From positions 253,001 through 317,000 of the forward strand of contig NZ_KQ130453.1 of NCBI RefSeq assembly GCF_001046635.1: a stretch of 64,000 nt of DNA, read 5' to 3'. This DNA is from Novosphingobium barchaimii LL02 (GTDB lineage: Bacteria > Pseudomonadota > Alphaproteobacteria > Sphingomonadales > Sphingomonadaceae). Positions 7,005 through 27,490 of the stretch are shown here, piece after piece (position 1 is the first letter of the stretch; every line of letters starts with the position of its first letter). Below the pieces are notes generated by a model, which saw only the letters and a list, made by a program, of their open reading frames with translations, did not search any database and was not told where the DNA came from. A program made the position numbers and the translations under genes.

Positions 7005-7067
7005 GTGAACCTTTCGGCGAATGCGCCGTGGCCCGGAAAGAAGGCCGCGCGGACATGCTGCGCTACG

Positions 7068-7096
7068 TTGATGGGGAGCGTAGCGCTCGCCATCAA
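7068..7096. terminator. Long imperfect inverted repeat at the end of the peptidase operon
   Basis: Positions 7068-7080 and 7084-7096 pair over 13 bases with one mismatch around a three-base loop. It lies between the stop of the zinc-peptidase gene (7160) and the start of the luciferase-like gene (7004), both minus strand. A smaller CGCCC/GGGCG hairpin follows at about 7105-7120. There is no T-run, so termination is likely but not certain; it could also be an operator. Confidence 0.4.
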
Positions 7097-7159
7097 TAGC
7101 TGAACGCCCGTTCAAGGGCGCATTCCGACCGCCGTGAAATGGTGAGGCTTCTGGCGCAC

Positions 7160-9052
7160 TTACCGGATGCAAAGGCCCGCAAAGATGTCGCTTCCCAGTT
7201 TCCACACGTTGCCGCTGTCGCGCGACCAGCTGCGTGCGCCTTGGGCGCTTACGGAATATTGTTCGATATCCTGTCGGCGGGCTTCCCGGTTCGGGCTCAG
7301 TGGTGCGCAGGACGAGAGCTTGCCTTCGCTTTCGAAGATCAGGCAGGCGCCCTGGCTCGACATGAACCCGCTGCGGTCGCGCCCTCCAAACGTGCGGCTG
7401 ACGATCTCCACCACGGTACCGAATTCGGTCATGCCGTTGGGGCCGGGGCGCGCGAAACTTCGGATACCGAGGATTTCGGTCGTGATATGCGTACCACTAT
7501 CCGGCGCCGTCTCCAGGCCGAGATGAGCCCGCCATTGCGGGGACTGGTTGATCGTCGCCGCGACTTCGCTTGCCTGGGTCACGGCGGTTTCCATGGGGAG
7601 CAGGTCACCCGGGTTGCCGGCGAAGGCGATCTGCGAAAAACTGAGCGCGGGTATCCGCAGCTTCATGTCTTCCGCGATGCGGTCCCAGGCGATCTGTTCC
7701 TCGGCATAGTGGAGGCCGTCGGTGGGGAAGATGCGGTGATAGCGAAACGCCTCCATCCAGGCATCGCGGATGCCGTCCCCGTCGACGGGGACCAGCCGGA
7801 TGTCGGCTGAGATCACCGCGCGCAGGAAGGTGAAGAAGCTGATGTCGAAGGGGGGGCAGTAGTCGAGCGCGCGGATCAGCATGGTCTGGAATATGCGGGC
7901 GGTCTTGCTCACTCGGTGCGCGATCTCGTCCGCCAGCGAAGGAGACAGCGCGCCGGGCGGGAGTATCCCGGTGCCGTTCGTCGCAATGTCCACAAGGCGG
8001 TCGATGCGCCGGTTGGCGACCACCCGGAACGCCTGATACACGGCCTGAACCAGCACGTTGCCAAGATCGTGCGGTTCCTCGCCGACGGTATCGTACATCA
8101 GGTCGCCTGAGAGCGGGCGCAGGGTATTGCCCAGCCCGGATGTCTTGGCGAAGGTGCGGGCCAGCGAATTGAGGATGTCCAATGCATCGATATTGGCGCG
8201 AGCGTTCCTGATCTGCTCGGCGACGAGGTCTGCGTAGCGAAAGCGCTGGAAGATCGCGATCAGGTCGGCGAACGCCTCGTGAAAGGCCAGCACGTCGCGG
8301 TTGGTAGGGGTGACGAAATGGGGCTTTACCGCATCCAGAAGGGCGTGGGTCATCTCGTGCACGATCACGTCGTGGGACAATGCGGTGAACACCCGGCTGC
8401 CCGGTGCATAGCCTACCGCGTCCTGCTTGGCCTTGTAGTACCCGAAGGATATCCGGGCTTCCTTGCGGTCGTACCAGGCCTGTGCTTCTTCCATGGCCCA
8501 GGGATGGAGTTCGAAGCAGCCGCTGCGCTCCCACAGTTCGGTGCCGTCTTCGCTCGTGTCGACAGGGCGCAGCCCGAGCGCGATCTCCCGGCCAAGCGCG
8601 CGCCGGAAGGTGATGTAAAGATCGGAGGCGACGGCATAGACCATCTGGACGATGAAGCGTGGGTCCGACAACGACGGCGCATAGCCGCTATCGGCAAGGA
8701 TGGCGGCGCTGTCCGGCTTCATGTCGAACATGCCCTGCAGCTTGATCCAGGCATCGCCGTGGGGGAGGACGATAGCGAAACGCTCGCCGCGCACGGCAGC
8801 GGCGGGGGCCGCCGTCACGGTCAGCGGCTCGAAAGGGAGCGCGATAGTGACGATGCCGCCGCGCTGGCTGCGTATCGAGGTATCAGCGGCATACACCCGC
8901 ACCGCGCGCATGATTGGATAGTCGCGCGGGTCTGCGCTGGGGCGCGCTGGCGCTTGGCTCGACGAGCAGGCCGGACGCGGGCTTCGTACTTCGTGCAGCA
9001 CCCGCGCCGATACCGTGACCTTGCCCCCCACTTGCCCGGCCGGGGTGTTCAT
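7160..9052 (-). CDS. Predicted HEMTH-type zinc metallopeptidase
   Basis: A 630-residue protein with a zinc-peptidase core. HEMTH at residues 232-236 supplies two histidine ligands and the catalytic glutamate. HEAFADL at 258-264 could supply the third, glutamate ligand, as in gluzincins, although the 21-residue spacing should be checked by structure prediction. The N-terminal 130 residues look like a separate, mostly beta domain. No signal peptide or membrane segment is evident, so it is probably cytoplasmic unless exported by another route. The ATG overlaps the stop of the caspase-like gene by four bases, so the two are translationally coupled. It is the last gene of the five-gene operon. Substrate unknown. 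Confidence 0.7.
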   Translation of the reverse strand: MNTPAGQVGGKVTVSARVLHEVRSPRPACSSSQAPARPSADPRDYPIMRAVRVYAADTSIRSQRGGIVTIALPFEPLTVTAAPAAAVRGERFAIVLPHGDAWIKLQGMFDMKPDSAAILADSGYAPSLSDPRFIVQMVYAVASDLYITFRRALGREIALGLRPVDTSEDGTELWERSGCFELHPWAMEEAQAWYDRKEARISFGYYKAKQDAVGYAPGSRVFTALSHDVIVHEMTHALLDAVKPHFVTPTNRDVLAFHEAFADLIAIFQRFRYADLVAEQIRNARANIDALDILNSLARTFAKTSGLGNTLRPLSGDLMYDTVGEEPHDLGNVLVQAVYQAFRVVANRRIDRLVDIATNGTGILPPGALSPSLADEIAHRVSKTARIFQTMLIRALDYCPPFDISFFTFLRAVISADIRLVPVDGDGIRDAWMEAFRYHRIFPTDGLHYAEEQIAWDRIAEDMKLRIPALSFSQIAFAGNPGDLLPMETAVTQASEVAATINQSPQWRAHLGLETAPDSGTHITTEILGIRSFARPGPNGMTEFGTVVEIVSRTFGGRDRSGFMSSQGACLIFESEGKLSSCAPLSPNREARRQDIEQYSVSAQGARSWSRDSGNVWKLGSDIFAGLCIR

Positions 9053-11514
9053 GAGAGGCCGCCGAACAGCGCCGAGGCGGCAAGGACATCGGAGCCTTCC
9101 AGCAGCGGTTTCTGGGGATCGCCCCGCATCTCGCGGGCGATGGCTTCGAATGCGGCCTGCGCGCTCAAGGATGCACCCTGCCCCTGAAGGACGCGGGCGG
9201 CGGCGCGGGTGAACAGGCCTGAGCCATTTTCCTCGATCGCGGATTCGTGCGGGAGGCAGGCGCAGAAAGTCAGGTAGGGCAGTTCCGCGCCGTAGGCCGC
9301 TACCCGCGCACTGCCCTTCGCGCGCTTGGGCGCTGCGGCATAGGCCTTGCGGGCGATCTCGTCCGGCAGCGAGACGCTGCGCTTGCGCCGGCGGGATGTG
9401 TCGGCCAGCGCCATGCGGCTGGACCGACCGGAGTGGCAGAAATCATGGAACCGCACGAGCTTCACGCCTTGCGGAACGGCGAGCAGGGCAGGCCATTCAT
9501 CGTCGACGATTAACCCGCCGTCGCGCCAGTCGATGGCGACCAGCGCTTCGTCCAGCGTATCGGTGAACTGGTTGTCGGCGAGTTCGTCGCCGTCGACGTC
9601 CAGCACTTGCGATCCGTGCGAGGATATGTGGATGAATACGGTGTCCCCAGCCCGGCTGCGCAGGAGGGTGCTCCTGATCGCATCGCGGATTTCCCCGGCA
9701 TGGAGATCGACGAGGACTTTCGATTCGAAACCCTGGCCCCTGAAGGTTTGCGCCCAGGTGTTCGCATCGTTGATGCAGCCGAACAGTGCCATGCCGTCGG
9801 GGAAGGCGTTATTACCAATGCACAGCGCGATTTTCTGCGCCCCGACGCGGACTGAGCCGGGGTTGGCCTGAGGGATTGGTGTGGGCGCGGCGTCCCCGCC
9901 GGTCACGGGATCGGCCACAGGCAGGGGCGCGGCGAAGCCTGCGCGGAAAAGCTCCTGCGGTACACCATAGTAGTTGGGTTCGGAGATCGCCCGGGCGAGA
10001 CGCGGCTCGCCGGCAGGAAACGGCGGGGCCACCTGTATGGTCGCTGGTATCCCAAGCATCCGCCTGAGTACGCTTTCCATGGTCGGCGCGTCGTTGTCGA
10101 AGCCGCCGTGCGTGCGCGATGTGGAAGCGCTGTCGAGCGGCGTAGAGGGCTCCGTAGGGGAAAGGAATATATTCCTGCCGAATGCTTTCTCCAGTTTTGC
10201 ATCGCCGCGGTGGAAATCCTCCATCCCCAGGATCGGCGTGTCGCGCTTTTCCTCGAAAGCGCGCGAGACGAGGTAGAGCAGCGACTTGCGGTAGGCTCCA
10301 GCGCAGTTATCGGCGCGTTCGGCCTCGCGCGAGAGGCCGAACAGCAGGGCTTCCTCGATCCTGCTGCCGATCAGCGGCGCCAACTGAGCGTCGAACAAGG
10401 CATTGGTCACCGCCGGGGCAAGGAAATGGACCTGTTTTACCCGGAATTTGCTCGCGCAAAGCAACGGAAGGAGATGGGCGTGGAAGATCGAGCCGGCGCT
10501 GTGGCCGATGGCGAATATCTCCCCCGGCTGGGTCCACTTTGCGGCCAGCTTCTCGACGAAGATATGGGCGCCGCCGTTTGCATCGCTTGCCCGTGCGGCA
10601 CTGTCCTTCATCGCGCGCCACAGCACGCTGCCGATTTTGGCGCCCAGCCGTTCGACGACGAGGTCGGTGGTGTGATCCCAGATATCGCGCGAGACCGCCC
10701 GGTCATGCCTTTGGTTGCTGTCGAGGATCTGCCAGAAGGTTTCCAGCCCGCCCGTTTCCCATACGAAGAACAGTGGATAGATGCCGTGTGCCAGCCACCA
10801 ACGGTGATAAGCCCATGCCATGGCAAGGCCATAGCGCTCGTTGGTCAGCCCGCCGTGGGCATATAGCATCAGCTTGTAGCCCCCGGCCTTGCACTTCTCG
10901 GCGATGCCGGCGACGATGCGGTCGAGATCGGCCGGGGATGTGGCCGCAATGCCGTCATCAGACAGGCGCCCCTTGCGCAGGTTGATCATATGGGGCGCCA
11001 GCGCGCGCAGTTGCTCGGGTGAGCCGCTGAACGGGCCGGGATCCAGGTAGGGTGGCCATGACGGCGCCGGGGGCATCGGCGGGGCCTGCCGCGGCACGGC
11101 GCCGCGGGCCTCGCCGGGTCGATAGCGGCTAGGGGTGCCTTCCACCGCTTCCAGAAAGGGGGGCAGCGGGGCGGCGGCGTCCTTGTTCCAGGCGCCCAGG
11201 AAGCTGTCGAGATCCCCGAGGAGCTTGTGCTGCCCCGAGTTCAGTTCTTCTGCTGCGTCGGCATCCAGCAGCGCCAGCAATTCGACGGGCTCCTTGCCGG
11301 TGATCGCGCGCCGGCTGGCGATCAATGTACCATCGGCGGTCAGCAGGTAATGGCTGAGCGAGTGGCCCGCATCCGCTGCTGCAGTTGCATCCGGGCCGGC
11401 TTGGGATATGGCGTTGTGCCCGCGATAAAGGTCGATGAATTCGGCGGCCGGGATGTTGCCTTTGACCTTCTTCACGGTGATCCACTTCGCGCCATCGGTG
11501 GCTTTCATGGACAT
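9049..11514 (-). CDS. Serine hydrolase-caspase (C14) fusion protein
   Basis: An 821-residue two-enzyme fusion. Residues 210-370 form an alpha/beta-hydrolase-like domain with YAHGG (218-222, oxyanion type) and the nucleophile elbow GHSAG (337-341, Ser339). Residues 558-815 form a caspase-like domain with IALCIGNN at its start, the catalytic His633 in SSHGSQ and Cys693 in DFCHSG, the pattern of bacterial metacaspase-type (orthocaspase) C14 peptidases. Acidic residues after the His block (VDGDELADNQFTD) could bind calcium or basic P1 residues. Both sites look intact. No signal peptide is seen. GGAG stands six bases before the ATG. It is nine bases downstream of the giant membrane-protein gene and overlaps the zinc-peptidase gene. 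The domain calls are firm; the pairing is the unusual part. Confidence 0.85.
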   Translation of the reverse strand: MSMKATDGAKWITVKKVKGNIPAAEFIDLYRGHNAISQAGPDATAAADAGHSLSHYLLTADGTLIASRRAITGKEPVELLALLDADAAEELNSGQHKLLGDLDSFLGAWNKDAAAPLPPFLEAVEGTPSRYRPGEARGAVPRQAPPMPPAPSWPPYLDPGPFSGSPEQLRALAPHMINLRKGRLSDDGIAATSPADLDRIVAGIAEKCKAGGYKLMLYAHGGLTNERYGLAMAWAYHRWWLAHGIYPLFFVWETGGLETFWQILDSNQRHDRAVSRDIWDHTTDLVVERLGAKIGSVLWRAMKDSAARASDANGGAHIFVEKLAAKWTQPGEIFAIGHSAGSIFHAHLLPLLCASKFRVKQVHFLAPAVTNALFDAQLAPLIGSRIEEALLFGLSREAERADNCAGAYRKSLLYLVSRAFEEKRDTPILGMEDFHRGDAKLEKAFGRNIFLSPTEPSTPLDSASTSRTHGGFDNDAPTMESVLRRMLGIPATIQVAPPFPAGEPRLARAISEPNYYGVPQELFRAGFAAPLPVADPVTGGDAAPTPIPQANPGSVRVGAQKIALCIGNNAFPDGMALFGCINDANTWAQTFRGQGFESKVLVDLHAGEIRDAIRSTLLRSRAGDTVFIHISSHGSQVLDVDGDELADNQFTDTLDEALVAIDWRDGGLIVDDEWPALLAVPQGVKLVRFHDFCHSGRSSRMALADTSRRRKRSVSLPDEIARKAYAAAPKRAKGSARVAAYGAELPYLTFCACLPHESAIEENGSGLFTRAAARVLQGQGASLSAQAAFEAIAREMRGDPQKPLLEGSDVLAASALFGGLS

Positions 11515-11523
11515 GGCATTCTC

Positions 11524-14500
11524 CTATGCAATAGCCGGCTGCTGCCGGTTGAGGCGTGACAAGAGCAGGGGCATGGTGGCGGCCGCGCCGGGGATCAGGG
11601 TGAGGATCGATGCGGAAGTGTCGTGATTGAGGTACGTAATCAGCAGCGACCCCGCTGCGACCAGCAGCAGCAGCGGCAGGCGCAGCAGGCTCCACGTGCC
11701 GCCCGTCTCTGCCTCTCGGCGGAACTGGTCGAACCAGTCCGGGTGCTCCAGCGTGCGAACCCAGTGACCGAAACTTTCGTTCATGAGCTGGAAGTTCGGG
11801 TCGGTCCGCACCAGACGGCGGGCGAGCAATCCGTTGATGACGGAGAAGTTGCTGGTGTTGATGAACTTGTCGTGGGCCAGGTGGTACATCACCAGGTGCT
11901 CCTGCTTGGAACATCGCACCCACTGGCCCTGATAATAGTCGCCCAGGAAGTTCGCCATGTATTCATGGATCTGCTCGACATAGACGCATGACAGACTGCT
12001 GGCAGTCTGGTTTGCGGTGAAGCTGAACGATTTGATCTGGTCCTGGATGCGATCGGACGGGATGCGGATCATCTCGTCCGCGATTACCTGGGCGACGCCG
12101 GGATTGGCGCCGGCCCACTTTCTTACGTTGGCCGCCACGTCGCCCGAACCAATCTGCGCGAGCAGGCGGTCGAGGTTGCTGTCGGCTTCGCTCCGGCTTT
12201 GCACCGGGGCGGCCGTATTCTCGTTCCAGGTATAGGTGATGAATTCGGAGAACAGTTCTGCCCAGCGATACGACTCGCTCTCGTTCATCACGCCTGCCAC
12301 CCCTGCGGCATCCGCCTCACGTTTTTCGCGTTCGCGGGTCTGGCGAAGGCGGACCAACGGCAGGGTCTGGGCGAAGAAGAAGATGTTTGCCTCCGGCCGC
12401 GCGGTGAGCTGTTCCAGCAGGCTCAGCGTCTTCAGGCGTAGCTGGCGATTGGCGACGATGCTCTCGAACCCGGTGACGACCCAGGACTTGACGGTGAGCA
12501 AGGCCATGGTCTTGTCTCCCAGTCGGTCGCGTTCGATGGCGAGGTCGAACAGTTCGAACCCCCGGCCATGGGATAGCTCGATCTGAAGGTCCGTAAACTG
12601 GCGATAGGGGTAATCGATGAAGACCGCCTTGACCGGTTCGGTGGCGCTGTTGCTCGTCCACATCTCGCGGATCTGGCTGGGCGAATGCGGTGGGTGCAAG
12701 GCGCGAAAGGCGAAATGCTGCAATCCGAACAGGCTGTTGGCGAGCAGGAGCAGCAGCCGGTAAACCGCATAGATCGCCGCAATCGCGGCAGCCACCACGA
12801 AGAGGATGTCGCCGACAAGGATAGCCAGCTTTCCTGGCAGGTCGGGCGGGAAGGCCTCGCCGGTCTCCTGCGCGGCGTCGCGCACGTTGCTCAGCAAGGC
12901 TGCGGCGGCGGCTCCGGGGTTTGCGACTGAACCCGCGCTGTCTTGCTGGCGCGGGCTCCACAGATAGAGGACCGGCGCCGCCAAAGGCGACCGGGCGCCA
13001 AGATCATGCCGATAGCGTTCCAGCAGCGTCGCTTCGACGAACAGGTGCGGAGTGAAGCGCGCAGGGGCCGGGCCACATGGCGCGGAGGCGGCGTTTTCAC
13101 GCGGCGCGCATGGGTAGAGGCTGCGCTGAAGCGCGCTTATCGCTTTGCTGCCTGCCTCTCTGGCATCCTCCAGACGCAGCATGTTCTGCGGGGCCCGGTC
13201 GGCGCGCACCACTCCGGCACCAGCGCAGTAGGCGGCTATCGGGGGGATCACCGCCAGAAGGTATAGTGCGATCGCCTGCAGGCGCAGCACGCGGCGCAGC
13301 CTGTGCGCGACGGATGCCAACCGGTCGCCCTTGCGGTGCCGGGGCCGCGCCGCGTGCCGGTTTACAACCGCTTCGAGCAGCGCCTGAACGGTGTAGCGCC
13401 CGCGCCAGCCATCGGTGGCGAGCAAGGCGATGGCGACCAGCAGCAGACCGTGGAGCACGATCCGCCACGGCGGTTGCCCTGCCGTGACCATGCAGGCGGC
13501 GGCAAACAGCGCGATGCAAGCGAACCCAGCCAGAGCCGCACCGGCCAGACGCTGCATCCCGCGATGCCACTGTCCATTGGCCTGCGGCTTGGCGAACAGC
13601 ATGGTCAGCACGAAGCTGCCGAGCAAACCGTGCAGCAGCATCGCATCGCCCGACGCCGTGAACAGTCCCGCCAGCATGAGCACGCCAAGGAGGATATGCG
13701 GAACGATGGTTCGGTCCAGCCACTGCTTGCGGGCCGCATCAAGCGCGGGATCGGGATCGGGCCAAAGCCGCCGGACAAGCGCCGCGCGGTCCACCATCGC
13801 CGCCAGTGTCATGGCGATGGCCAGCAGTATTCCAACCGCGAGCATCATCGTTCCGGCCAGATAGGCTGGTGCCAGGGCGAGGTTCTCAAGCCTGGTCTTG
13901 TCGTACCACACAGCGACCAGCCAGCGCGGCGAGCAGGCGGCGCCGAAAGTCATCCGCACTTTTCGGCCGCCATAAAGCCCGGTGAAGGCAAGGGTCGGTG
14001 CCGGTGACGGTGCCCCCATCGCGGCGGCGTCGCAGCGCGCGCGCAATGCCTGCGCGGCACGTTTCAACTCCGTCGTGGTATCGAGTTGCTGGTCGAAATT
14101 CTCGCTGTGTTCGCGGGTGGGGTCGGAGTGGTGCAGGACTTCGAGACTGACGGGGTCGATCACGGCAAAGCCGAAATCGGCGGGCATCGGTACGTCCATC
14201 GCTGAGGCAAGAGGCTTGCCTGCCATGAGGAACCCGCCGCGTGAAAGCGGGTCCGCCAGCAGCGCGACCATGCGTGAGTTGCCGTTGTTGGCGGCCGGGA
14301 CCTGGTCAATGACGTACGTCCAGCCCGAATTGCAGTGGGGCTTCCTGATTATGGCTGGAGGCGCTGTCGACTGTGCTGGAGCCTTGGGGTCGCAGGGCAG
14401 CGTATCGCCGCTACGCAGCCGGACGAAATATCGCCGTTTGGTGATGTCGGCCTGGGGAGGATGGTTGCTGGCCCCCGCGGCATTGAGGACTTGCCCGTCC

Positions 14501-15756: not shown

Positions 15757-15777
15757 CGTGTCAGCCCCCGACGCACA

Positions 15778-16992: not shown

Positions 16993-17059
16993 GTCTACCT
17001 GCCGGTTGGAGGACAGTTCATTCGGTGCGACCCGTTTATTCTTGGGAACTACGCGCGGT

Positions 17060-18652: not shown

Positions 18653-18910
18653 AGGATCTCTCCCCCTTGTTTAATGACAAGGTAAACAAACCATCAAATA
18701 AGAAATTGACTTTAATTTTGGCGAACAAAGACATCTGTCGGTATTGAATGTCAATAATTTTCGATCTTGCTTGACGTTTGGTTTGAAATTTCGTTCTATT
18801 CGTATCGCCGCCACGGCACGCGATAGCGGTGGCCGTGGCGGCGTCGCCAAAACCATAACAGATTGTTTCCGCGAGGATCTGACCGGGCCGGCCGGTCGAG
18901 GGAGGATGTC
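18653..18910. promoter_or_regulatory. AT-rich divergent promoter region of the protease and oxidase operons
   Basis: This 258-bp stretch is clearly richer in A and T than its surroundings. For the plus-strand operon TTGACG (18771-18776) and TCTATT (18795-18800), 18 bases apart, form a plausible promoter, leaving about 105 bases of leader before 18911. For the minus-strand operon a perfect TTGACA lies at 18754-18749, with only a poor -10 behind it. Shared control of both operons is the natural reading, but it is inference. Confidence 0.5.
18665..18682. promoter_or_regulatory. Inverted repeat next to the patatin ribosome binding site
   Basis: CCTTGT (18665-18670) and ACAAGG (18677-18682) form a perfect 6-bp inverted repeat with a six-base spacer. 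It lies 13-30 bases upstream of the patatin ATG and adjoins its ribosome binding site. It could be a repressor operator or a leader hairpin that hides the start. Confidence 0.4.
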
Positions 18911-21364
18911 ATGGCGGTTGGGAAAGGCATTTTGGCGGGGCTCGCGCTCCTCGCGCTGGGCGGCTGCAATGGTGCCAGCGGCAAAAAGGACGAGGCTGTC
19001 CAGGCCGGCCTGTCTGACGATCACTTTGTCCAGGCGGGTGAGGATTATTTCAGGGACATGGATAACGGCGTGCGGCTGACCCCTGCCGAAGCGCGCGGCC
19101 GCAACATGTGGCTCGTCTGGAGCGGGGGCAACGACCGATTCTGGGACGGGATGACGAAGCCGACACTAGGCGGCTTCGACCTGCTCAAGATCGTGGCGCC
19201 CGATCCACGTTCGCCCAACCGCCGGGGCAACCGCTGGTATCAGCTCGGATTGGTGAACGAACCCTGCTTCAAGGCCCCGGCGAAAGTCGACAGCTATGGC
19301 CTGTGGCGCGATGAGCGCGACCCGGCCTGCCCGCCCGATCCTTTCGCCGATGCCGCGCGTTATCCGGGTGTGGCCATAGGCGCGCGGGGCAAGACCGTGC
19401 CGGTGGGCTCCTATTACGGCGAGCCGAGCGGCATTCTTGGTCTGCGGCTGTTTCCCAACCCCGACTTCGACGAGAAGGCGAAAGCCCGGTGGAGCGCTGC
19501 GCGTTATTACGCCGATCCGCGCTATTACAACGATCCCAAGCTGGTCAGGCCATACCGCGTGGGCATGAGCTGCGGCTTCTGCCATGTCGGCCCGAGCCCG
19601 GTGCATCCACCCAGGGATCCCGAGAACCCGACGTTCGCCGATCTCAATTCCACTGTCGGCGCGCAGTACATGTGGGTGGACCGGCTGTTCTTCTGGAACC
19701 CGAACGAGCGCAACTACATGTACCAGCTGGTGAAAACCTATCGCCCCGGTGCGATGGATACTTCGCTGGTATCGACCGACAACATCAACAACCCCCGGAC
19801 GATGAACGCGGTCTACAGTCTGGGAGACAGGCTGACTGCCGCTCGCCAACTCGGCCATGAGGCGCTCAAGAGCGGTGAGCGGGATAACATGCAGTTCAAC
19901 ATGTTCACGAACAGCGCTGCGCTGACCCGCTACTTCGAGGCGCCGGATCAGGTCTGGACACCGCACGTCCTCAAGGACGGCTCGGATGCGGTGGGGGCGC
20001 TGGGGGCGCTGAACCGCGTATATCTCAATATCGGCCTCTACAGCGAGGAATGGCTGACTCATTTCAACCCGGTAGTCGGCGGTAAACCGATCACGCCGAT
20101 CCGCATCGCGGTTGCCCGTAAGAACTCCGCCTATTGGCGCGCGACGGAAAAGGGTACGCTCGACACCGCGCTGTTTTTCCTGAAGGCGGCGCGGCCGGAT
20201 CGACTGGCCGATGCGCCGGGAGGCGCGGCCCATCTTGGCACGCCAGAGGCGGTTGCGCACGGGCGCGACGTTTTTGCGGTTACCTGCGCGCGCTGCCATT
20301 CCAGCAAGCAGCCTCAGGCACCGGCGGGCGTCAGCCTCGCGGATAGTGCCGGGCCGGGCTACATGAGCCGCTTCAAGGCGTGGTGGAAATGGACGCAGGG
20401 ACCCGACTTCCAGCAGAAGATGAAGGCGCTGGCGGCGCGGCCCGACTTTGCGAACGGTAATTACTTCAGCACCGACGTGCGTATCCCGGTCACGTTGCTG
20501 CGCACGAACTTGTGCAGTCCGTTGGCGACCAATGCGTTGGCTGGCAACATCTGGGACAATTTCTCGTCGAGTTCGTACAAGGCGCTGCCCTCCGTTGGCC
20601 GCTCCAGCTACCGCGATCCCTTCACCGGGGCGGCGTTGGCCTATGCGATGCCGGCAGGCGGGCGGGGCTATACGCGGGTGCCGTCGCTGGTTTCGCTATG
20701 GTCCACGGCGCCGTTCCTGCTCAACAATTCGGTGGGGCCGTTCAACGGAGATCCTTCGGTGAGCGGTCGGATGGCTGTATTCGATGCGTCGATCAAGGCG
20801 ATGCTCTGGCCAGAGAAGCGGCCGCGGGACGAGGAGGTGCCCAATGCCGGCGGTGTCATCGACCGGACGACCACGCGCAGCTATCTGTTCGTGCCGTCCA
20901 GCCTCCTGCCCAAGCTGCCGGGCAAGCTCGACGACGAGGCGCAAAAGGCACTGGCGCAACTGACGAACAGCAACGGCGATATTGAGGTGGGGCCGATTCC
21001 CGCCGGGATGCCGGTGAACCTGCTTGCCTCGCTCCAGCCGCTGGCGGAAAGCCGGTCTCCGGCCGATATCACCCGGCACTACGGGCGGGTCCTTATCCTG
21101 CTTGCAAAGCTTAAGGCCGCAATCCTTTCTGTGCCGAAAGGGGCGGACGATGCGGCTTTGCGGGTTCATTTCTCCAACCTGCGCGGTAGTCTGATGGCGC
21201 TGAACAAGTGCCCTGACTTCGTCGTTAACCGGGGGCATTATTTCGGCACGGCAGCCTTCAACGACCAGGAGGGCCTTACCGCCGACGAGCGCGCTTTCGG
21301 CACTGAGCCGGTCTTGAGGGACGAGGACAAGCGGGCTTTGATCTCCTATCTGAAATCGCTTTAG
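18911..21364 (+). CDS. Diheme c-type cytochrome lipoprotein
   Basis: An 817-residue secreted protein. The ATG at 18911 follows GGAGG by five bases, and the N-terminus ends in lipobox LGGC (Cys19), so it should be anchored in the outer periplasm. Two haem c motifs are seen: CGFCH (221-225) and CARCH (459-463), 238 residues apart. Large diheme proteins with widely spaced CXXCH motifs include the MauG/cytochrome c peroxidase superfamily and the rubber oxygenase RoxA; size and layout resemble RoxA most, but I cannot show orthology. Likely role: oxidation or oxygenation of an organic substrate, or electron transfer for the GMC flavoprotein encoded 10 bases downstream. Confidence 0.82.
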   Translation: MAVGKGILAGLALLALGGCNGASGKKDEAVQAGLSDDHFVQAGEDYFRDMDNGVRLTPAEARGRNMWLVWSGGNDRFWDGMTKPTLGGFDLLKIVAPDPRSPNRRGNRWYQLGLVNEPCFKAPAKVDSYGLWRDERDPACPPDPFADAARYPGVAIGARGKTVPVGSYYGEPSGILGLRLFPNPDFDEKAKARWSAARYYADPRYYNDPKLVRPYRVGMSCGFCHVGPSPVHPPRDPENPTFADLNSTVGAQYMWVDRLFFWNPNERNYMYQLVKTYRPGAMDTSLVSTDNINNPRTMNAVYSLGDRLTAARQLGHEALKSGERDNMQFNMFTNSAALTRYFEAPDQVWTPHVLKDGSDAVGALGALNRVYLNIGLYSEEWLTHFNPVVGGKPITPIRIAVARKNSAYWRATEKGTLDTALFFLKAARPDRLADAPGGAAHLGTPEAVAHGRDVFAVTCARCHSSKQPQAPAGVSLADSAGPGYMSRFKAWWKWTQGPDFQQKMKALAARPDFANGNYFSTDVRIPVTLLRTNLCSPLATNALAGNIWDNFSSSSYKALPSVGRSSYRDPFTGAALAYAMPAGGRGYTRVPSLVSLWSTAPFLLNNSVGPFNGDPSVSGRMAVFDASIKAMLWPEKRPRDEEVPNAGGVIDRTTTRSYLFVPSSLLPKLPGKLDDEAQKALAQLTNSNGDIEVGPIPAGMPVNLLASLQPLAESRSPADITRHYGRVLILLAKLKAAILSVPKGADDAALRVHFSNLRGSLMALNKCPDFVVNRGHYFGTAAFNDQEGLTADERAFGTEPVLRDEDKRALISYLKSL

Positions 21365-21374
21365 GCCGCGCCTG

Positions 21375-23168
21375 GTGGAGGCCACTTACGATTATGTAGT
21401 GGTTGGGTCCGGCGCGGGCGGCGGCACGGTCGCGGCCCGGCTGGCGGAAGCGGGCATGCGTGTACTGGTCCTGGAGGCGGGACCCGATCCGGGGGGCGAG
21501 GCGAATTACGAGGTCCCCGCCTTCCATCCGCTGGCGAGCGAGGACCCGCAGTTCTCCTGGGCTCAGAAGGTCTCGCATTTTGAGGCTCCGCAAGAGGCAT
21601 GCCTCGACGAAAAGGCTGATGCGGATGGCAATGTCCTTTATCCGCGCGCGGGGGCACTGGGTGGATGCAGCGCGCACAACGCGATGATTTTCCTGCCGCC
21701 GCCCGATGAAGATTGGGACTGGCTGGCCCGCCAGACCGGCGATGAAGGCTGGTCCGCCGCCGCGATGCGGGGCCATCGCCGCAGCGTCGAACAATGCCGC
21801 CATCGCCCCATGTGGCGCCTTCTTGCCCTGCTGGGTATCGACTCGACCGGGCACGGCTGGCGCGGTTGGCTGCCGGTTGAAAAGGCATTGCCGCTGCGGG
21901 CGATTGTCGACGCCGGCATGATCCGCGCGATCTTCTTCGCCGCCCTTGTCGAACTGGGCCGGGGGAAGGGGCTGAGGGCCAAACTGCGCGCTGTCTGGCA
22001 GAACTGGGGTGATCCCAACGACATTCGCCGGGGCGGCAGCGAACAACTGTGCTACCTGCCGCTATCGACCGACCGCCATGCTCGAACCGGCGCTCGCGAA
22101 CGCCTGCATAGCGTTGCCGCGCGTCATCCCGAGCGTCTCGATATCCAGACCGACGCGCTGGCGACGCGGATCATTCTTGATGACAAAGGCAGGGCCTTGG
22201 GTGTGGATTGGACCAAGGGGCGCCATCTTTATCGTGCCTGCCCCCAACCATCCGAGGAGGAAGGCAGGATGATGACGGCCTACGCCTCGCGTGAGGTCAT
22301 CATTGCGGCGGGGGCGTTCGCAACGCCGCAACTGCTGATGCTTTCGGGCATCGGCGACCCCGAGCGGATGGCCGCGCATGGCATTGCCCCCCGGATCAGC
22401 TTGCCCGAGGTAGGACGCAACCTGCAGGATCGCTACGAGATATCCATCGTCAATCGCCTGGCCCGTCCCTGGAAGTCGATGCGGGGCGCGGACTTTTCAA
22501 TCGGCGACAGGCCCTACTGGCGCTGGCGGTACTGGCGCCTTGGCATGTACGTTTCAAACGGCGCCGCCCTCACGGCCCTGCGCCGCTCGTCGCGGGCACG
22601 GGGCCATGATCCCGACCTTGCGCTGATGGGTCTTATCGGCCGTTTCCGGGGCTATTACACCGGCTATGCGCAGGATACCTGGGCCGGCCGCGACGGCTTT
22701 TCATGGGCGGTACTCAAGGGACAGACGGGCAACCGGGCCGGGTCGGTCGATCTGGCCTCCGCCGACCCGCGCGATCCGCCCTTGGTCAGGTTTCGCAACT
22801 TCGCCGATCACGGAGATGCCGACCTAGATGCGCTGGTCGAAGGGCTGGAGATGGCGCGCGAATTGACTCGCCCGCTGGAGGATTGCGGCGCCATCGCCGA
22901 GGAGGAGGTCCCCGGCCGGCATGTCGAAGGCGGGGCCCTTCGGCAATGGGTGCGGACCCGCGCCTGGGGCCATCATGCCTGCGGCACGGCAGCCATCGGC
23001 CCGGTGCTGGACCCGCGCGGAAAGGTCCACGGCACCAACTGCCTGCGCGTGGTCGATGCCTCGATCTTCCCGCGCATACCGGGGCTGTTCCTGGTAGCTG
23101 CGATCTATCTCGCCGCGGAAAAGCTGGCTGCGGATATCCTTGCGGATGCCGGGCAGAGGAAAGGCTGA
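21375..23168 (+). CDS. GMC-family FAD oxidoreductase
   Basis: A 597-residue flavoprotein beginning at a GTG codon. The N-terminal ADP-binding fold has VVVGSGAGGGTVAARLAE, with the expected acidic residue in VLVLEAG. AGALGGCSAHNAMIF is the GMC signature around the flavin and VIIAAGAFATPQLLMLSGIG is the second signature. The C-terminal active-site His pair region is HHACGTAAIGPV, ending with RVVDASIFPRIPG. GMC enzymes oxidise alcohols or introduce double bonds. There is no signal peptide, so it is probably cytoplasmic or exported with a partner. It lies between the cytochrome gene (10 bases upstream) and the catalase-like gene (3 bases downstream), firmly in one operon. Confidence 0.92.
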   Translation: MEATYDYVVVGSGAGGGTVAARLAEAGMRVLVLEAGPDPGGEANYEVPAFHPLASEDPQFSWAQKVSHFEAPQEACLDEKADADGNVLYPRAGALGGCSAHNAMIFLPPPDEDWDWLARQTGDEGWSAAAMRGHRRSVEQCRHRPMWRLLALLGIDSTGHGWRGWLPVEKALPLRAIVDAGMIRAIFFAALVELGRGKGLRAKLRAVWQNWGDPNDIRRGGSEQLCYLPLSTDRHARTGARERLHSVAARHPERLDIQTDALATRIILDDKGRALGVDWTKGRHLYRACPQPSEEEGRMMTAYASREVIIAAGAFATPQLLMLSGIGDPERMAAHGIAPRISLPEVGRNLQDRYEISIVNRLARPWKSMRGADFSIGDRPYWRWRYWRLGMYVSNGAALTALRRSSRARGHDPDLALMGLIGRFRGYYTGYAQDTWAGRDGFSWAVLKGQTGNRAGSVDLASADPRDPPLVRFRNFADHGDADLDALVEGLEMARELTRPLEDCGAIAEEEVPGRHVEGGALRQWVRTRAWGHHACGTAAIGPVLDPRGKVHGTNCLRVVDASIFPRIPGLFLVAAIYLAAEKLAADILADAGQRKG

Positions 23169-23171
23169 ACG

Positions 23172-24344
23172 ATGCTCACGCCGCTTCACCGCTTGCTCGA
23201 AGCCGGGCTTCATGCCGAGCGGCGTATCGATCCGTTCGTCCGCCCGGCGTTGGATAAGGTGCTGCGCTGGCCGCTTACGCGCTTCTTCAACTGGACCATC
23301 AACCTCACCCGCAGCCGCGATGTGCCGCCGCTCGCCATGGAGCGCATCTGGCCGGACGAGGAACAGAGCCTGGACACGATGGTGGCGGAAATGCAGCGCC
23401 AGCTCGACATAGACTTCACGCCCGGCAATTATGAACGTGCCGGAAATACCAAGACGCACGGCCTCGTCCATGGCGAGCTGACCGTGCTCCCGAACCTGCC
23501 CGAACATTTGCGCTGTGGTATCTTCGCCGCCGAGCGGAGCTATCCCGCATGGGTCCGCTTTTCCAACCCCGGCCCGCATGTCGAGCCTGACATCGACGAC
23601 GTCGGTTTCGGCAGCATCGGCATTAAGCTGATGGACGTGCCCGGGCCTAAACTGATGGACGACGAACGGCACACGCAGGATTTTACCGCCGTTACCACCA
23701 TTACCTTCGTCACGCCGACATCGCGGGAGAACGCATTTCTTCAGTACTGGAGCAGGCGGCACCTCCCCATCTGGTATTTCCTGAACCCGAAGCGCACGCA
23801 TATCCGAGATTTCCTGATGCAGGCGCTGTGGAACCGCACGCTCGCCAATCCGCTGGCGAACGAATACTTTAGTTGTGTACCTTATCTGCTGGGCCCGGGG
23901 CAGGCGATGCAGTACAGTTTTCACCCGCTGACGCCGGTGTCGACGCATATCCCCCGTCTGCCATTGCGCCCGCCCGACAACTACATTCGCGACAATCTGG
24001 CCGAAAGTCTGCGTGCTGGCGAAGCCCGTTTCGAGATGCGCGTCATCCTGCAGAACGATCCGTTCCTGATGCCGATCGAGCAGAACGGCGTGCTGTGGGA
24101 CCCGCGCCGCTCACCGCGTATTCCCGTAGCGACGCTCACTATTCCAAAGCAGGAATTCCAGTCGCCAGAGCAATTCGCTTTTGCGCGCCGCTTGACCATC
24201 AACCCGTGGCACTGCCTCGCCGATCATCGCCCGCTGGGAAACCAGAACCGCGCCCGCAAACGCATGTACTACGAGATGTCGCGCTATCGGCACGCCAGGA
24301 ACGGCGAAACCCACGTAGAGCCGACCGGGGCGGAGAGGTTCTAG
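23172..24344 (+). CDS. Catalase-related haem protein
   Basis: A 390-residue member of the catalase superfamily but shorter than true catalases (about 480 or more). Catalase-like elements include THGLVHGEL (distal His region), YPAWVRFSNPG, DERHTQDF and near the C-terminus HCLADHRPLGNQNRARKRMYYEMSRYRH, where a Tyr would be the proximal haem ligand. Short catalase-related proteins in corals and cyanobacteria act on fatty-acid hydroperoxides rather than hydrogen peroxide. With a patatin lipase and oxidoreductases next door, a lipid-peroxide role is attractive, though unproven. It starts three bases after the GMC stop and ends 13 bases from the convergent DyP gene. Confidence 0.85.
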   Translation: MLTPLHRLLEAGLHAERRIDPFVRPALDKVLRWPLTRFFNWTINLTRSRDVPPLAMERIWPDEEQSLDTMVAEMQRQLDIDFTPGNYERAGNTKTHGLVHGELTVLPNLPEHLRCGIFAAERSYPAWVRFSNPGPHVEPDIDDVGFGSIGIKLMDVPGPKLMDDERHTQDFTAVTTITFVTPTSRENAFLQYWSRRHLPIWYFLNPKRTHIRDFLMQALWNRTLANPLANEYFSCVPYLLGPGQAMQYSFHPLTPVSTHIPRLPLRPPDNYIRDNLAESLRAGEARFEMRVILQNDPFLMPIEQNGVLWDPRRSPRIPVATLTIPKQEFQSPEQFAFARRLTINPWHCLADHRPLGNQNRARKRMYYEMSRYRHARNGETHVEPTGAERF

Positions 24345-24357
24345 CCGCTTTCGCTCC

Positions 24358-25782
24358 TTAGTCTGCAAGTATGGCGGCAAGCCCCTTCAACCCCGGAAGG
24401 AAGAAATACGCCCCGCCCTTGACCGTGACGAACCGGGGCAAGCCGCCGATCAGGCGCGGGCATCCTTGCCTGTCCACATGGCTGAAAGCATCTGTCGCCA
24501 TGCCACCGTTGACCGGTTTTCGGTGGCCGAGCAGGGGGTCGGATTCCCCGCTCAACCCCGCGAAATTGTGGCTGGAAATCCATGCGCCCTGCACGAATTC
24601 GAATTGCCGCGCGAGGTTGGCGTTGAGACAGATGAAGTGGATGCCGCTTGGTTCCAGGGGTGCATCTTCACCTGCCGCCATAGCCTCGCCGGGCGACATT
24701 GCGGGGCCGTAGGACCGCCCCCGCCGCACGATGCGGTGAAAGCGAGCGGCGGCGACGGCATCGTGGATCGCGGTTCCCTTGAGGCCGGCCGACGACAGCA
24801 GATCGCGAAAGAAGCCGCGCCGGCCCTGAGGATCGTCGCTGCTGCGTGGGTTCGCGCGGCGGACGTGCGCGCCGATGGGGCAGGCGATGCCGTCGGGATC
24901 TGCGGCGAAGGTGAAGCTGTTGTCGCGGTCCTGCGTTCCTTCGACCGGCGTTTCAGGCAGGCCGTCCAGCGGCGCGCCATCCATCGTGCGCCCGACCATG
25001 CGCTCCGCCAGAACGCCCGCCCCGTCAGGGCCGGCGGCCTGTGCCAGCCACTGCCAGAACCCGCGAACGTCCTGTTCGAGTTGGCGATAGACGAGGTAGC
25101 TGCCGTTGCGGCCTATCCCCTTTGCGGTGTGGTCGGCGACAAAACCATATTCGTTGGGATAGCCGAGCAATACCTCCCCCATGGCAAGGCGATTGCGGTA
25201 GATCCTGTCACGCACCCCTCCGGGGTGCAGCGTGCCCTCCCAGTCCAGTGCGGGCTGCGATACCCCATCGGCGAAACCGAAAGGCTCGTGGCCGACACGG
25301 GTATTGCTGCGATTGAGGGCGAGCAAAGTGCAGCCGGCAGCGGGTAGGGCGCTTACGATCTGCGTTTCCAGTGCCTCGATCGCCTCTTCGGTGGATAGCA
25401 GGATCAGCAGGACGTGGGGCTCTTTTTCACCCGCGCCCCAGTCCCAGTACTGCGGCGCGTTTTCTCCTGCGTCACCCAGACGGTGCGAGCGGCGTTCGTC
25501 TCCGGCCATGCCGTCCAGAAATTCCGGGGCGAAACCGGGGACGGAGTCCGGTGCGAAGCCCAGCGTGCGCAGACCCGCTGCGGTGAATGCGATCTGATCG
25601 ACACGCGAAACCCGGTGCGATCTTGCATTTGCCAGAGATGTCACGGTCAGGCCCCGCAGCCATGCGCGCGCAGCGGCGGGGTTGATTACGCGCAGCAGCA
25701 GGTAACGTGCCGCCCGCAGCGAACCGAAGCCGCGATCGACGATGGCCTGGATGTCGCCGCTTTCGGCGGCGGCGGCGCTCAT
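24358..25782 (-). CDS. DyP-type haem peroxidase
   Basis: A 474-residue dye-decolourising peroxidase. The signature GFADG is at 169-173 (distal Asp172), and the proximal haem ligand is His306 in CPIGAHVRRANPR. The C-terminal block EFVQGAWISSHNF is also typical of the longer DyP classes. No signal peptide, Tat motif or encapsulin-targeting tail was recognised, so it is probably cytoplasmic. It uses hydrogen or organic peroxides to oxidise a wide range of substrates. Its ATG overlaps the stop of the upstream membrane-protein gene by four bases, so it is translationally coupled and last in its operon. Confidence 0.92.
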   Translation of the reverse strand: MSAAAAESGDIQAIVDRGFGSLRAARYLLLRVINPAAARAWLRGLTVTSLANARSHRVSRVDQIAFTAAGLRTLGFAPDSVPGFAPEFLDGMAGDERRSHRLGDAGENAPQYWDWGAGEKEPHVLLILLSTEEAIEALETQIVSALPAAGCTLLALNRSNTRVGHEPFGFADGVSQPALDWEGTLHPGGVRDRIYRNRLAMGEVLLGYPNEYGFVADHTAKGIGRNGSYLVYRQLEQDVRGFWQWLAQAAGPDGAGVLAERMVGRTMDGAPLDGLPETPVEGTQDRDNSFTFAADPDGIACPIGAHVRRANPRSSDDPQGRRGFFRDLLSSAGLKGTAIHDAVAAARFHRIVRRGRSYGPAMSPGEAMAAGEDAPLEPSGIHFICLNANLARQFEFVQGAWISSHNFAGLSGESDPLLGHRKPVNGGMATDAFSHVDRQGCPRLIGGLPRFVTVKGGAYFFLPGLKGLAAILAD

Positions 25783-27047
25783 ATCTCGGCGATCCAGCGG
25801 CGCAGGGCTGCCCCGGAAGGCGGGTTTTCGAAACCGCGTCTGATGCGGGTGTTGCGCGCCATGTCGTATGTACTGAGGCCGGGCATCGCCTTGTACCAGA
25901 CCTGCGTGGGTATCTGGTGGTGGAACAAGTAGCGCTTGAAATCCTGCTCATGCCGGGCGCCGTCCAGGATCAGCCAGCGCGTGCGCGGATAGCCAAGCCC
26001 GTTGGAGAACGAAAGGTTCAGCCCGAAAGCGACCTTATTGATGAAATCGTCGTTATAGGCCTCGCGGCTGCCGTCGTAGTTGCTGGCGAAGAGCACCCGT
26101 CGTCCTTCGTCGAGGAAAGTCCACGAGGCGAAATGGATCGTGTTCACGCGCGCCAGGCGCCCCTTGCCGAAGATGTGCCGCGCGCCCCAGTCGATGACCC
26201 ATAGAATGGCGATGGTCAGCCAGCGCCGGAACAGGCCCGGTTTGAGCGATCCGATGGCGCTGTACTGGTTGGTGATGTCGTGGTCTTCCAGCGCCGATAG
26301 AGTGCGGTTGCGCTCCCTTGACGGCGTGGGCGCAATCACCGGATCGCGGGTTTCGCGCCAGCGCAGGAGGATCGCCAGAAACGGAAGTGACGGCAGCAGC
26401 AGGGGAGCAAGAGCAATCGCTGCGACGGGGAGCAGCAGGAAGTGAGCGGTCTCGCCGATGCGCCAGGCTACCGGCGGCGCAGCAACCGGGTTGAGCGTCA
26501 CGGCCGCGCCCGCCGCGCGCAGGATGGGCATCAATTGTTCTGGCGAGGCGCGGGGATGGGCCAGCCTTGCCGTGCGTAGCACGTCGTGGAGCGCGGCCTC
26601 CTCGCGCACCTGCGCCGCGCTTCTGCCCCGCCAGTTGACGTAAGTGGCGGCGGAGCGGATGCGATGGGCGTGCAACCATCGCAGCAGGTCGGTGTCATCG
26701 CGGAAATCAGCGCAATGGCCGAAAATCCGCCGCAGTCCGGGCGCCGCGATTGCCACGAGATCGGCGATCAAGCCATCCGGCGTACCGTCGAAGTCGGCGA
26801 TGAAAGCCAGCCTTGTCGGCTCGTGGACGGGAAGGGTGGGGGCGATCAGCCGGTCGGGTAGCGACGGGTCCTCCAGCACGATGAAACGCGCTACGTGCAG
26901 CGAGGCGATCCGGCCGAACGGGACCAGCGGATTGACGGGGTCAGCCTGACCCGGCGCGGCGTTCATGGTTGCAAGCAGCGCGGAAAGTTCGGGCATGACG
27001 CCGTGTCGCAGCACACCGGCCACGAACAGCTGACCCTGCCCCATCAC
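25779..27047 (-). CDS. Membrane protein with duplicated alpha/beta domain, unknown function
   Basis: A 422-residue protein I do not recognise by name. It seems to contain two copies of one fold. HVARFIVLED (51-60) with AFIADFDGTPDGLIADLV (81-98) parallels IHFASWTFLDEG (304-315) with VLFASNYDGSREAYNDDF (318-335). The copies flank a hydrophobic segment (201-228) and a weaker one (277-287), so the protein is probably membrane-anchored with both copies on the same face or one on each. The pattern recalls the ferredoxin-like fold of the DyP/chlorite dismutase superfamily, without recognisable haem ligands. Four-base overlaps tie it to the genes on both sides. Confidence 0.72.
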   Translation of the reverse strand: MMGQGQLFVAGVLRHGVMPELSALLATMNAAPGQADPVNPLVPFGRIASLHVARFIVLEDPSLPDRLIAPTLPVHEPTRLAFIADFDGTPDGLIADLVAIAAPGLRRIFGHCADFRDDTDLLRWLHAHRIRSAATYVNWRGRSAAQVREEAALHDVLRTARLAHPRASPEQLMPILRAAGAAVTLNPVAAPPVAWRIGETAHFLLLPVAAIALAPLLLPSLPFLAILLRWRETRDPVIAPTPSRERNRTLSALEDHDITNQYSAIGSLKPGLFRRWLTIAILWVIDWGARHIFGKGRLARVNTIHFASWTFLDEGRRVLFASNYDGSREAYNDDFINKVAFGLNLSFSNGLGYPRTRWLILDGARHEQDFKRYLFHHQIPTQVWYKAMPGLSTYDMARNTRIRRGFENPPSGAALRRWIAEI

Positions 27048-27490
27048 TGCTGGCTGCCGAACTCCAGGGCGAAATCTATCAGCCGCCTTTCGCCCCAGTA
27101 CACCTTGCCGAGGTAGATCCCGGGTTCGATCATGCGAATTTCATCGCGCACCCGCGAGGCCAGGAGTGAGGTGTCCGAATAGTCGAGGACGATGCACTCC
27201 TTGGTGTCCAGCCAGCTTTCCCCCTTGTAGACCTTGGCGACTATGGCCTTCAGTCCCAGCGGCAGGATATGGTTGCGCAGGAAGCCGTGCCTGGCGTCGA
27301 ATACTTTGCCCTGCCAGGCGAAGAAGTTGATGATCGCTGCGATCTCGTCGGAAAAGCTGGTTCCCGGGGCGATGATCGCGGTGCCCTTGGCTTCTCCATC
27401 GGGGATCGGTCCTGCCTCATGGGACGAGAACAGCGCATCCAGATCTGCCTGCGACATCTTGAGCCACTGCGAAACGACGGTCCCTGTCAT
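27044..27490 (-). CDS. Small soluble protein of unknown function in the DyP operon
   Basis: A 148-residue protein starting at ATG 27490 behind GGGAGGG; a start at 27508 would add six residues. No signal peptide or membrane segment is seen. The C-terminal half has a regular sequence (YKGESWLDTKECIVLDYSD, then EIRMIEPGIYLGKVYWG and RLIDFALEF) that looks like a small beta-rich ligand-binding fold. I cannot name the family. It is the first gene of the operon with the duplicated membrane protein and the DyP peroxidase, overlapping the former by four bases. Confidence 0.65.
   Translation of the reverse strand: MTGTVVSQWLKMSQADLDALFSSHEAGPIPDGEAKGTAIIAPGTSFSDEIAAIINFFAWQGKVFDARHGFLRNHILPLGLKAIVAKVYKGESWLDTKECIVLDYSDTSLLASRVRDEIRMIEPGIYLGKVYWGERRLIDFALEFGSQQ

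Follow-up and report, generated by a model that had tools for sequence, protein, structure and literature searches.

The stretch of DNA analysed here, 64,000 nucleotides of Novosphingobium barchaimii LL02 (contig NZ_KQ130453.1, referred to as the window), contains a locus of eleven genes that consists of two modules. The first is a redox cassette of six genes, encoding a dihaem c-type cytochrome, a GMC flavin oxidoreductase, a catalase-fold haem protein (catL), a divergent DyP-type peroxidase, a membrane-anchored tandem ABM-like protein (dupM) and a small conserved protein. This cassette is a widespread conserved unit. The second is a hydrolase operon of five genes, encoding a patatin-like phospholipase, a clostripain-family (C11) cysteine peptidase, a membrane protein of 1410 residues, a fusion of an alpha/beta serine hydrolase with a caspase (C14) domain and an M4-like zinc metallopeptidase. 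It accompanies the cassette in a single sphingomonad clade. Our preferred explanation, held tentatively, is that the two modules serve lipid release and haem-dependent oxidation under proteolytic control. Loci and genomes are cited by our own L and G numbers.

The conservation of the cassette was followed with a profile scan for the cytochrome in one genome per species, which yielded 400 relatives, the best 80 of which were kept with their flanks. All 80 loci were fetched by the cytochrome and several of them are short contigs; all six cassette genes are present in 53 of the 80, and among the 58 loci that reach 18 kb or more the figure is 47. Besides the cytochrome, found in all 80 as the query, the GMC gene was seen in 78 loci, the small protein in 66, dupM in 59, catL in 58 and DyP in 57. 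The commonest order, cytochrome-GMC-small-dupM-DyP-catL with all genes in one direction, occurs in 32 loci and the window's own order in 12. Judged by the record titles, complete sets are found in alpha- and betaproteobacteria as well as in Acidobacteria, and single Sorangium and Nitrospira records on short contigs hold part of the cassette only. Neither for the cassette nor for the content of the whole locus was a description found in the open-access literature, most subscription papers lying outside the search, which agrees with the sequence-only reading that preceded this analysis. The parts belong to known families, and we rate the set as being of a kind with oxidative lipid- or hydroperoxide-processing gene sets.

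For the individual proteins, the Pfam scan took in ten of the eleven, the 154-residue small protein being scanned with NCBIfam instead. At E 0.1, Pfam gave no match for the 1410-residue protein, the zinc peptidase, catL and dupM. For catL, the closest solved structure is the coral allene oxide synthase (cAOS, 1u5u; profile E 6.9e-5). The earlier label "catalase-like" holds for the fold and not for the activity. The proximal tyrosine motif R-x-x-x-Y is present, with Y366, R362 and R373 in 63 of 63 sequences. At the distal position, Asn92 is found in all 62 sequences with a residue there, and the R-x-x-H of catalases is missing. The register of H67 to N92 was taken from the profile alignment to 1u5u, the N-terminal segment of which is insignificant when taken alone (i-Evalue 1.5e+03), and from the equal spacing of R64-H67 and R89-N92.

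The haem residues of cAOS are R64, R102, R360, T66, H67, N137 and Y353, according to PMC5617202. By the profile alignment, R64, R102, R360 and Y353 correspond to R89, R129, R373 and Y366 of catL, all of them conserved, whereas T66 and H67 are replaced by Gly91 and Asn92 in 62 of 62 sequences, so that the distal set T66/H67/N137 is not retained in its first two residues. Because of Asn92 in place of H67 and Gly91 in place of T66, we conclude that catL is, by its predicted residues, neither a catalase nor a standard cAOS. The likeness to cAOS and cHPL thus lies in the catalase fold, as seen by profile, and in a haem protein for which dismutation of H2O2 is not expected. A further difference from these systems is that no lipoxygenase was found among the genes scanned.

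DyP peroxidases are marked by the distal Asp of a GxxDG motif and a proximal His. Both are present in the window's protein (D172 in 64 of 64 and H306 in 65 of 66 sequences with a residue there), which matches Dyp_perox_C at 9e-4 and NCBIfam TIGR01413 at 5.1e-25, both under the cut-off. The earlier description of dupM as a duplicated membrane protein was borne out by hydropathy and by an AlphaFold model (pLDDT 88.7), which displays two alpha/beta halves connected through a long helix that spans the hydrophobic residues 199-230. Only two Foldseek matches fell below 1e-3, namely 9lmn, an ABM/SchA-like polyketide protein (4.8e-6), and 9ltx, a polyketide decarboxylase (4.3e-5). That dupM is a degenerate DyP was considered and dropped, the profile comparison being negative. 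The 154-residue protein has 0 matches in NCBIfam, and in the PDB profile search nothing scored below E 1.

The GMC protein matches its Pfam family at 2.6e-22. The cytochrome matches Pfam cytochrome c at 2.9e-4 and NF040606 at 9.9e-6, the latter under its cut-off, and wherever homologues have residues at its two CxxCH motifs these are conserved (91 of 91 and 90 of 90 sequences). Translation more probably begins at the ATG at 18911, which is kept in L008 and L012. Perhaps the protein is of the dihaem-peroxidase or RoxA-like kind. It resembles RoxA/RoxB and the dihaem cytochrome c peroxidases (PF21419, NF040606) in being a large exported protein with two CxxCH haems, and RoxA-like proteins adjoin the window-type cytochrome in several lineages. 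In contrast to RoxA/RoxB, PF21419, the RoxA-like domain, does not match the window cytochrome. A proven RoxA was rejected because the hhalign alignment is partial, the motif P[FY]L.N[NG]SV (our own pattern) is found in only 40 of 90 homologues and the fold search gave no significant match; MauG or MauG-like entries make up four of its 30 non-significant rows.

Within the hydrolase operon, catalytic residues are present in all four enzymes. The patatin matches Pfam at 7.7e-17, above the cut-off, its dyad of S186 (GISTG) and D349 (DGG) is kept in three of three relatives (L008, L009, L012), and a pattern search revealed the lipobox LSGC. The clostripain (Peptidase_C11, 1.4e-24) belongs by its match to a family marked by a His-Cys dyad together with calcium and self-processing; of these, the dyad is seen here as H110/C199, kept in two of two relatives. 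In the fusion, the caspase domain PF00656 is matched at 7.6e-24, and S339 (GHSAG), H633 and C693 are kept in three of three relatives, the C14 dyad thus being in place. The M4-like peptidase shows the gluzincin arrangement of HExxH and a downstream Glu: H232, E233 and H236 of HEMTH and E259 of AFHEAFAD are invariant in an 11-row alignment. Pfam M4 itself does not match the window's peptidase, and a homologue matches Peptidase_M4 weakly (0.0099). The 1410-residue protein has hydropathy segments, large non-membrane regions and, by alignment, a conserved C-terminal region; a plasmid tblastn search with it gave no match. As a guess, it could be a sensor or organiser.

Relatives of these enzymes also occur in other surroundings. 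The hydrolase half of the fusion is found elsewhere in the class in proteins of about 630 residues, seen away from cassette genes (L156-L160), whose N-termini look papain-like by eye. A search with the alpha/beta-hydrolase domain led to nine further genomes of 385, and in the five loci read no called relatives of the other ten window proteins were present. In three loci, the M4-like domain is joined to an S8 subtilase in one protein (L102 5986-10353, L127 7082-11170, L007 1-2448). In G010, G147 and G006, it forms a gene pair with a metallo-beta-lactamase-fold gene (L131, L128, L132), the cytochrome lying elsewhere in the same genomes.

The hydrolase operon stands beside the cassette in a small set of sphingomonads. 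The full eleven-gene locus recurs in Sphingobium arseniciresistens (L012, L142: all five hydrolase genes), with 72-89% protein identity to the window for the ten proteins measured. Four hydrolase genes are seen in Novosphingobium sp. 18050 (L008), where the contig ends inside the hydrolase-caspase gene, three are present beside the cassette in N. resinovorum (L010) and only the patatin in N. lentum (L009). In a further genome (G127), the M4-like, hydrolase-caspase and 1410-residue genes lie opposite catL, DyP, dupM and the small protein, and an animal-type haem peroxidase (PF03098, 1e-45) takes the place of the patatin, the C11 peptidase, the cytochrome and the GMC protein. Among the partial versions in N. 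resinovorum and G127 the identity of the 1410-residue protein goes down to 29%. The haem peroxidase of G127, 1122 residues long, heads the protease operon (L101 14545-17910); PF03098 is present in 31 of the 199 genomes of the family. In the catL tree, all five operon-bearing rows lie in one clade of seven rows (support 100/100) with three label changes for operon presence, readable as one gain and two losses of the operon within a single sphingomonad clade.

The region between the divergent hydrolase and redox operons is 78% identical over 198 columns between the window and S. arseniciresistens, compared with 60% at the third codon positions of the cytochrome. This argues for a promoter region that is probably constrained in part of the clade, clear conserved blocks being not visible in L009 and L010. 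The two operons may be co-regulated across it.

At the level of whole genomes, the modules are associated in the family of N. resinovorum (G003; 199 genomes), where the cytochrome is found in seven genomes, relatives of the 1410-residue protein in eight and the M4-like gene in 14. The M4-like gene is present in all seven cytochrome genomes, against an expectation of 0.5, and a 1410-residue relative in five of them. The hypergeometric p for cytochrome and M4-like gene is 1.6e-9 if relatedness is ignored, and 3e-7 if three Polymorphobacter-like genomes are counted once, which leaves the M4-like gene in five of five and the 1410-residue relative in three of five cytochrome genomes and takes out relatedness only in part. 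Cytochrome and 1410-residue relative are neighbours in G003 and G178, and strong matches to the hydrolase-caspase are limited to G003 and G127, with three further weak ones. In the family that includes a Variovorax genome (165 genomes), seven have the cytochrome, five the M4-like gene and none both. The M4-like gene is present in nine and absent from 41 of 50 non-sphingomonad cassette genomes, and three of the nine are Variovorax (L037, L042, L046). The nine leave room for a weak genome-level link; their M4-like genes lie outside the fetched flanks, in which the gene occurs in only one of the 80 cassette loci. Because of the 0 of 7 in the Variovorax family and the nine of 50 cassette genomes, the link between the two modules is mainly a sphingomonad feature.

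This decides against a single eleven-gene system, as proposed from the sequence alone, since the modules mostly part outside the sphingomonads: the 53 loci with a complete cassette compare with three of 80 for the hydrolase-caspase and two of 80 for the clostripain. The separation of protease and oxidase operons, named beforehand as speaking against a joint system, is largely what is seen elsewhere.

The same numbers bear on the suggestion that the three operons are unrelated neighbours in a chance cluster. The hydrolase side is absent from most cassette loci and the 165 betaproteobacterial genomes show no co-occurrence, as expected for such a cluster, whereas the same eleven genes in S. arseniciresistens, the partial versions in N. 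resinovorum and G127 and the higher conservation of the divergent region compared with third codon positions are hard to reconcile with it. For the six redox genes, which recur alone in 53 loci, chance is rejected, and for the hydrolase-redox pair in one clade it is unlikely. As an explanation of the whole locus it is therefore very improbable.

The presence of a patatin and caspase-family enzymes resembles the CBASS phospholipase effectors and the bacterial caspase/gasdermin systems. The hydrolase operon could accordingly be an immune or regulated-death module made of sensor, proteases and patatin effector, with the redox genes as its toxic or signalling arm. PADLOC, run on ten of the eleven proteins, gave only weak matches, to two phospholipase effectors (patatin, 2.5e-8), a caspase (6e-6) and, for the GMC protein, a desaturase model. 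These scores would fit an immune role, as would the M4-like gene in all seven cytochrome genomes of the G003 family and near patatin genes in G254, G244, G237 and G228. In contrast to CBASS and gasdermin systems, no nucleotidyltransferase (CD-NTase) and no gasdermin was matched among the ten proteins scanned (Pfam, PADLOC), so that neither system is recognised here. Furthermore, the operon-bearing rows form one clade, as opposed to the patchy spread expected of defence islands, and the redox cassette comes without the proteases in most loci seen. An immune module is therefore unlikely.

The link to lipids comes from the patatin. A patatin gene is present in ten of the 80 cassette loci (L008, L009, L012, L016, L021, L024, L032, L051, L066, L083), compared with 1.33 expected in 1.55 Mb at the density of 24 cassette genomes (122 patatins in 142.3 Mb); these genomes were chosen partly because their loci looked interesting, the density was obtained by Pfam profile and the ten loci by phmmer with two queries, L016 is a partial match at the locus edge, and L008, L009 and L012 are one clade. 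On a Mesorhizobium plasmid, GMC and patatin are even fused to one protein of 1562 residues (L003 14777-19465). The association of patatin and redox genes suggested for the window is thus seen outside it as well.

Rhizobial plasmids harbor cytochrome-GMC-patatin operons together with RoxA-like dihaem proteins and an enzyme of the OYE family. Beside the cytochrome-GMC pair, PF21419 is found in L002 (two proteins), L032 and G178, and proteins with phmmer similarity to RoxA-like proteins adjoin the cytochrome in L001, L060 and L087. The OYE-family flavoenzyme is matched by PF00724 in L002, with similar genes in L001 and L087. In G178, a relative of the 1410-residue protein stands next to a row made up of a RoxA-like protein, the cytochrome, GMC and a gene whose patatin match stays below the Pfam cut-off. 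An exception in kind to the mainly sphingomonad link of the modules is plasmid pRlX3 of Rhizobium ruizarguesonis (L007), on which 20 kb hold a patatin, a dupM-DyP protein and an S8 peptidase carrying an M4-like domain. Single P450-dupM-DyP polypeptides of 1423-1620 residues are found on plasmids of Novosphingobium, Pararhizobium and Sulfitobacter (L004 9814-14145, L005 9835-14106, L006 9775-14637), the P450 domain being weak in L004. The patatin thus appears to be a recurring bridge between the modules. A lipid substrate is preferred because the annotated recurring partners, most other clusters being unannotated, release, oxygenate or process lipids or hydroperoxides.

The main rival is that the cassette serves to degrade or detoxify an aromatic or some other compound that is not a lipid, and that the hydrolase operon, serving nutrient release or envelope upkeep, is merely co-located or co-regulated. 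Sugars, alcohols and aromatics are substrates of GMC-cytochrome pairs and of DyP peroxidases, and the Foldseek matches of dupM are polyketide ABM-type enzymes. In Cupriavidus (L030, L031, L033, L049), a molybdopterin dehydrogenase comes after the cytochrome-GMC pair; the small protein accompanies the pair in L030, L031 and L049, L033 also has a 2Fe-2S protein, and L030 and L031 have a KatG-like peroxidase. Also in line with such a pathway is the most frequent neighbour cluster beyond the six cassette genes (15 sources), for which the listed example is an MFS transporter in L004. On the contrary, the repeated patatin linkage and the GMC-patatin fusion would not be expected, and the closest solved relative of catL acts on fatty-acid hydroperoxides. 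Catabolic genes may nevertheless recur among the further neighbour clusters, most of which are unannotated. A non-lipid pathway is thus possible, if rather doubtful.

In the preferred explanation, lipid release followed by haem-dependent oxidation, the substrate would be lipid-derived, either an unsaturated acyl chain or a membrane isoprenoid. The lipoprotein patatin would free acyl chains and thereby supply it. The cytochrome and the GMC protein would start the oxidation or take its electrons, a step which elsewhere may be taken by a RoxA-like or an animal-type haem peroxidase; the superfamily of the latter includes fatty-acid dioxygenases. The resulting hydroperoxide would be turned over by catL, DyP and dupM, with the small protein as a putative partner of dupM. 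The 1410-residue membrane protein may sense the state of the envelope, and the caspase fusion, the clostripain and the M4-like peptidase would act downstream, as proteolytic control or as an effector arm.

Several observations weigh against this explanation. By the two queries used, 70 of the 80 cassette loci have no patatin, many of them being cut short, and the lipid itself is a deduction from gene content. The catL protein is also devoid of the histidine with which cAOS begins to cleave hydroperoxides (PMC5617202). In the hhalign comparison with RoxA-like proteins, only the C-terminal domain of the cytochrome is covered, and the fold search with its model (pLDDT 67.6) gave nothing significant. 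Most core cassette proteins have no export signals, whereas the c-type cytochrome is exported; therefore a shared substrate must cross the inner membrane or lie in it. The quantitative promoter comparison comprises one genome pair only. Cytochrome and M4-like gene are neighbours in just one of the seven pairs, that of G003, and the Variovorax family separates the two entirely.

Fungal dioxygenase-P450 fusions and the plant lipase-LOX-AOS-OPR pathway are established routes to oxylipins. The loci described here share with them a lipase, a haem (per)oxidase, a catalase- or P450-type enzyme and, in rhizobia, an OYE. In contrast to both, no lipoxygenase is present among the genes scanned, and the parallel is one of enzyme class only. 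A more far-reaching idea, speculative and rather improbable as it stands, is a lipoxygenase-free bacterial pathway of the oxylipin type, in which patatin, dihaem or animal-type haem oxygenation and a distal-Asn class of catalase-fold enzymes rearranging hydroperoxides would be placed under a sphingomonad membrane sensor and protease cascade. The oxidised lipids would then be the signal or weapon of a stress or death response.

All open reading frames of the locus were confirmed, and the proposal of eleven genes in three tight operons stands (Table 1). In transcription order, the hydrolase genes are separated by gaps of 67, 21 and 9 bases and then share a 4-base overlap, the plus-strand redox genes are separated by 10 and 3 bases and the convergent operon, running from the small protein over dupM to DyP, has 4-base overlaps throughout. 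The designation "envelope locus" is partly right, since four of the eleven proteins show a lipobox or membrane segments: patatin and cytochrome are lipoprotein-like, and the 1410- and 422-residue proteins are membrane proteins. It does not hold for the rest, of which the GMC protein has short hydrophobic segments, taken as buried in the protein, and the other six have none. These calls were made by hydropathy scan and lipobox pattern, with no signal-peptide program.

Table 1. Genes and intergenic region of the locus (positions in the window).
Feature	Positions	Strand	Remark
M4-like zinc metallopeptidase, 630 aa	7160..9052	minus	hydrolase operon
Alpha/beta serine hydrolase-caspase (C14) fusion, 821 aa	9049..11514	minus	hydrolase operon
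Polytopic membrane protein, 1410 aa	11524..15756	minus	hydrolase operon
Clostripain-family (C11) cysteine peptidase, 404 aa	15778..16992	minus	hydrolase operon
Patatin-like phospholipase, 530 aa	17060..18652	minus	first gene of hydrolase operon
Divergent promoter region, hydrolase vs redox operons	18653..18910		
Dihaem c-type cytochrome lipoprotein, 833 aa	18863..21364	plus	likely start 18911
GMC flavin oxidoreductase, 597 aa	21375..23168	plus	
Catalase-fold haem protein (catL), 390 aa	23172..24344	plus	
Divergent DyP-type peroxidase, 474 aa	24358..25782	minus	convergent
Membrane-anchored tandem ABM-like protein (dupM), 422 aa	25779..27047	minus	convergent
Small conserved protein, 154 aa	27044..27508	minus	convergent; first of its operon

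Two neighbours of the locus were considered as members. A luciferase-like monooxygenase gene (5988-7205) adjoins the peptidase gene, and a similar gene lies directly upstream of a Polymorphobacter cytochrome; it was not counted, the similarity being weak (1e-7). Directly behind the DyP operon, genes for a histidine kinase and a response regulator are located (27641-29682). This two-component pair was left out because the kinase, searched at E 1e-40, was found again in the 95%-identical L008 alone; a looser neighbour cluster adds one further locus.

For biochemical work, the six-gene cassette provides a clear target, since the distal residue of its catalase-fold haem enzyme predicts a non-catalase chemistry and a membrane-anchored ABM-like partner is found alongside. 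If the substrate is a lipid, these bacteria would possess an oxylipin-like pathway without lipoxygenase, and its sphingomonad version would tie such a pathway to caspase-family proteases.

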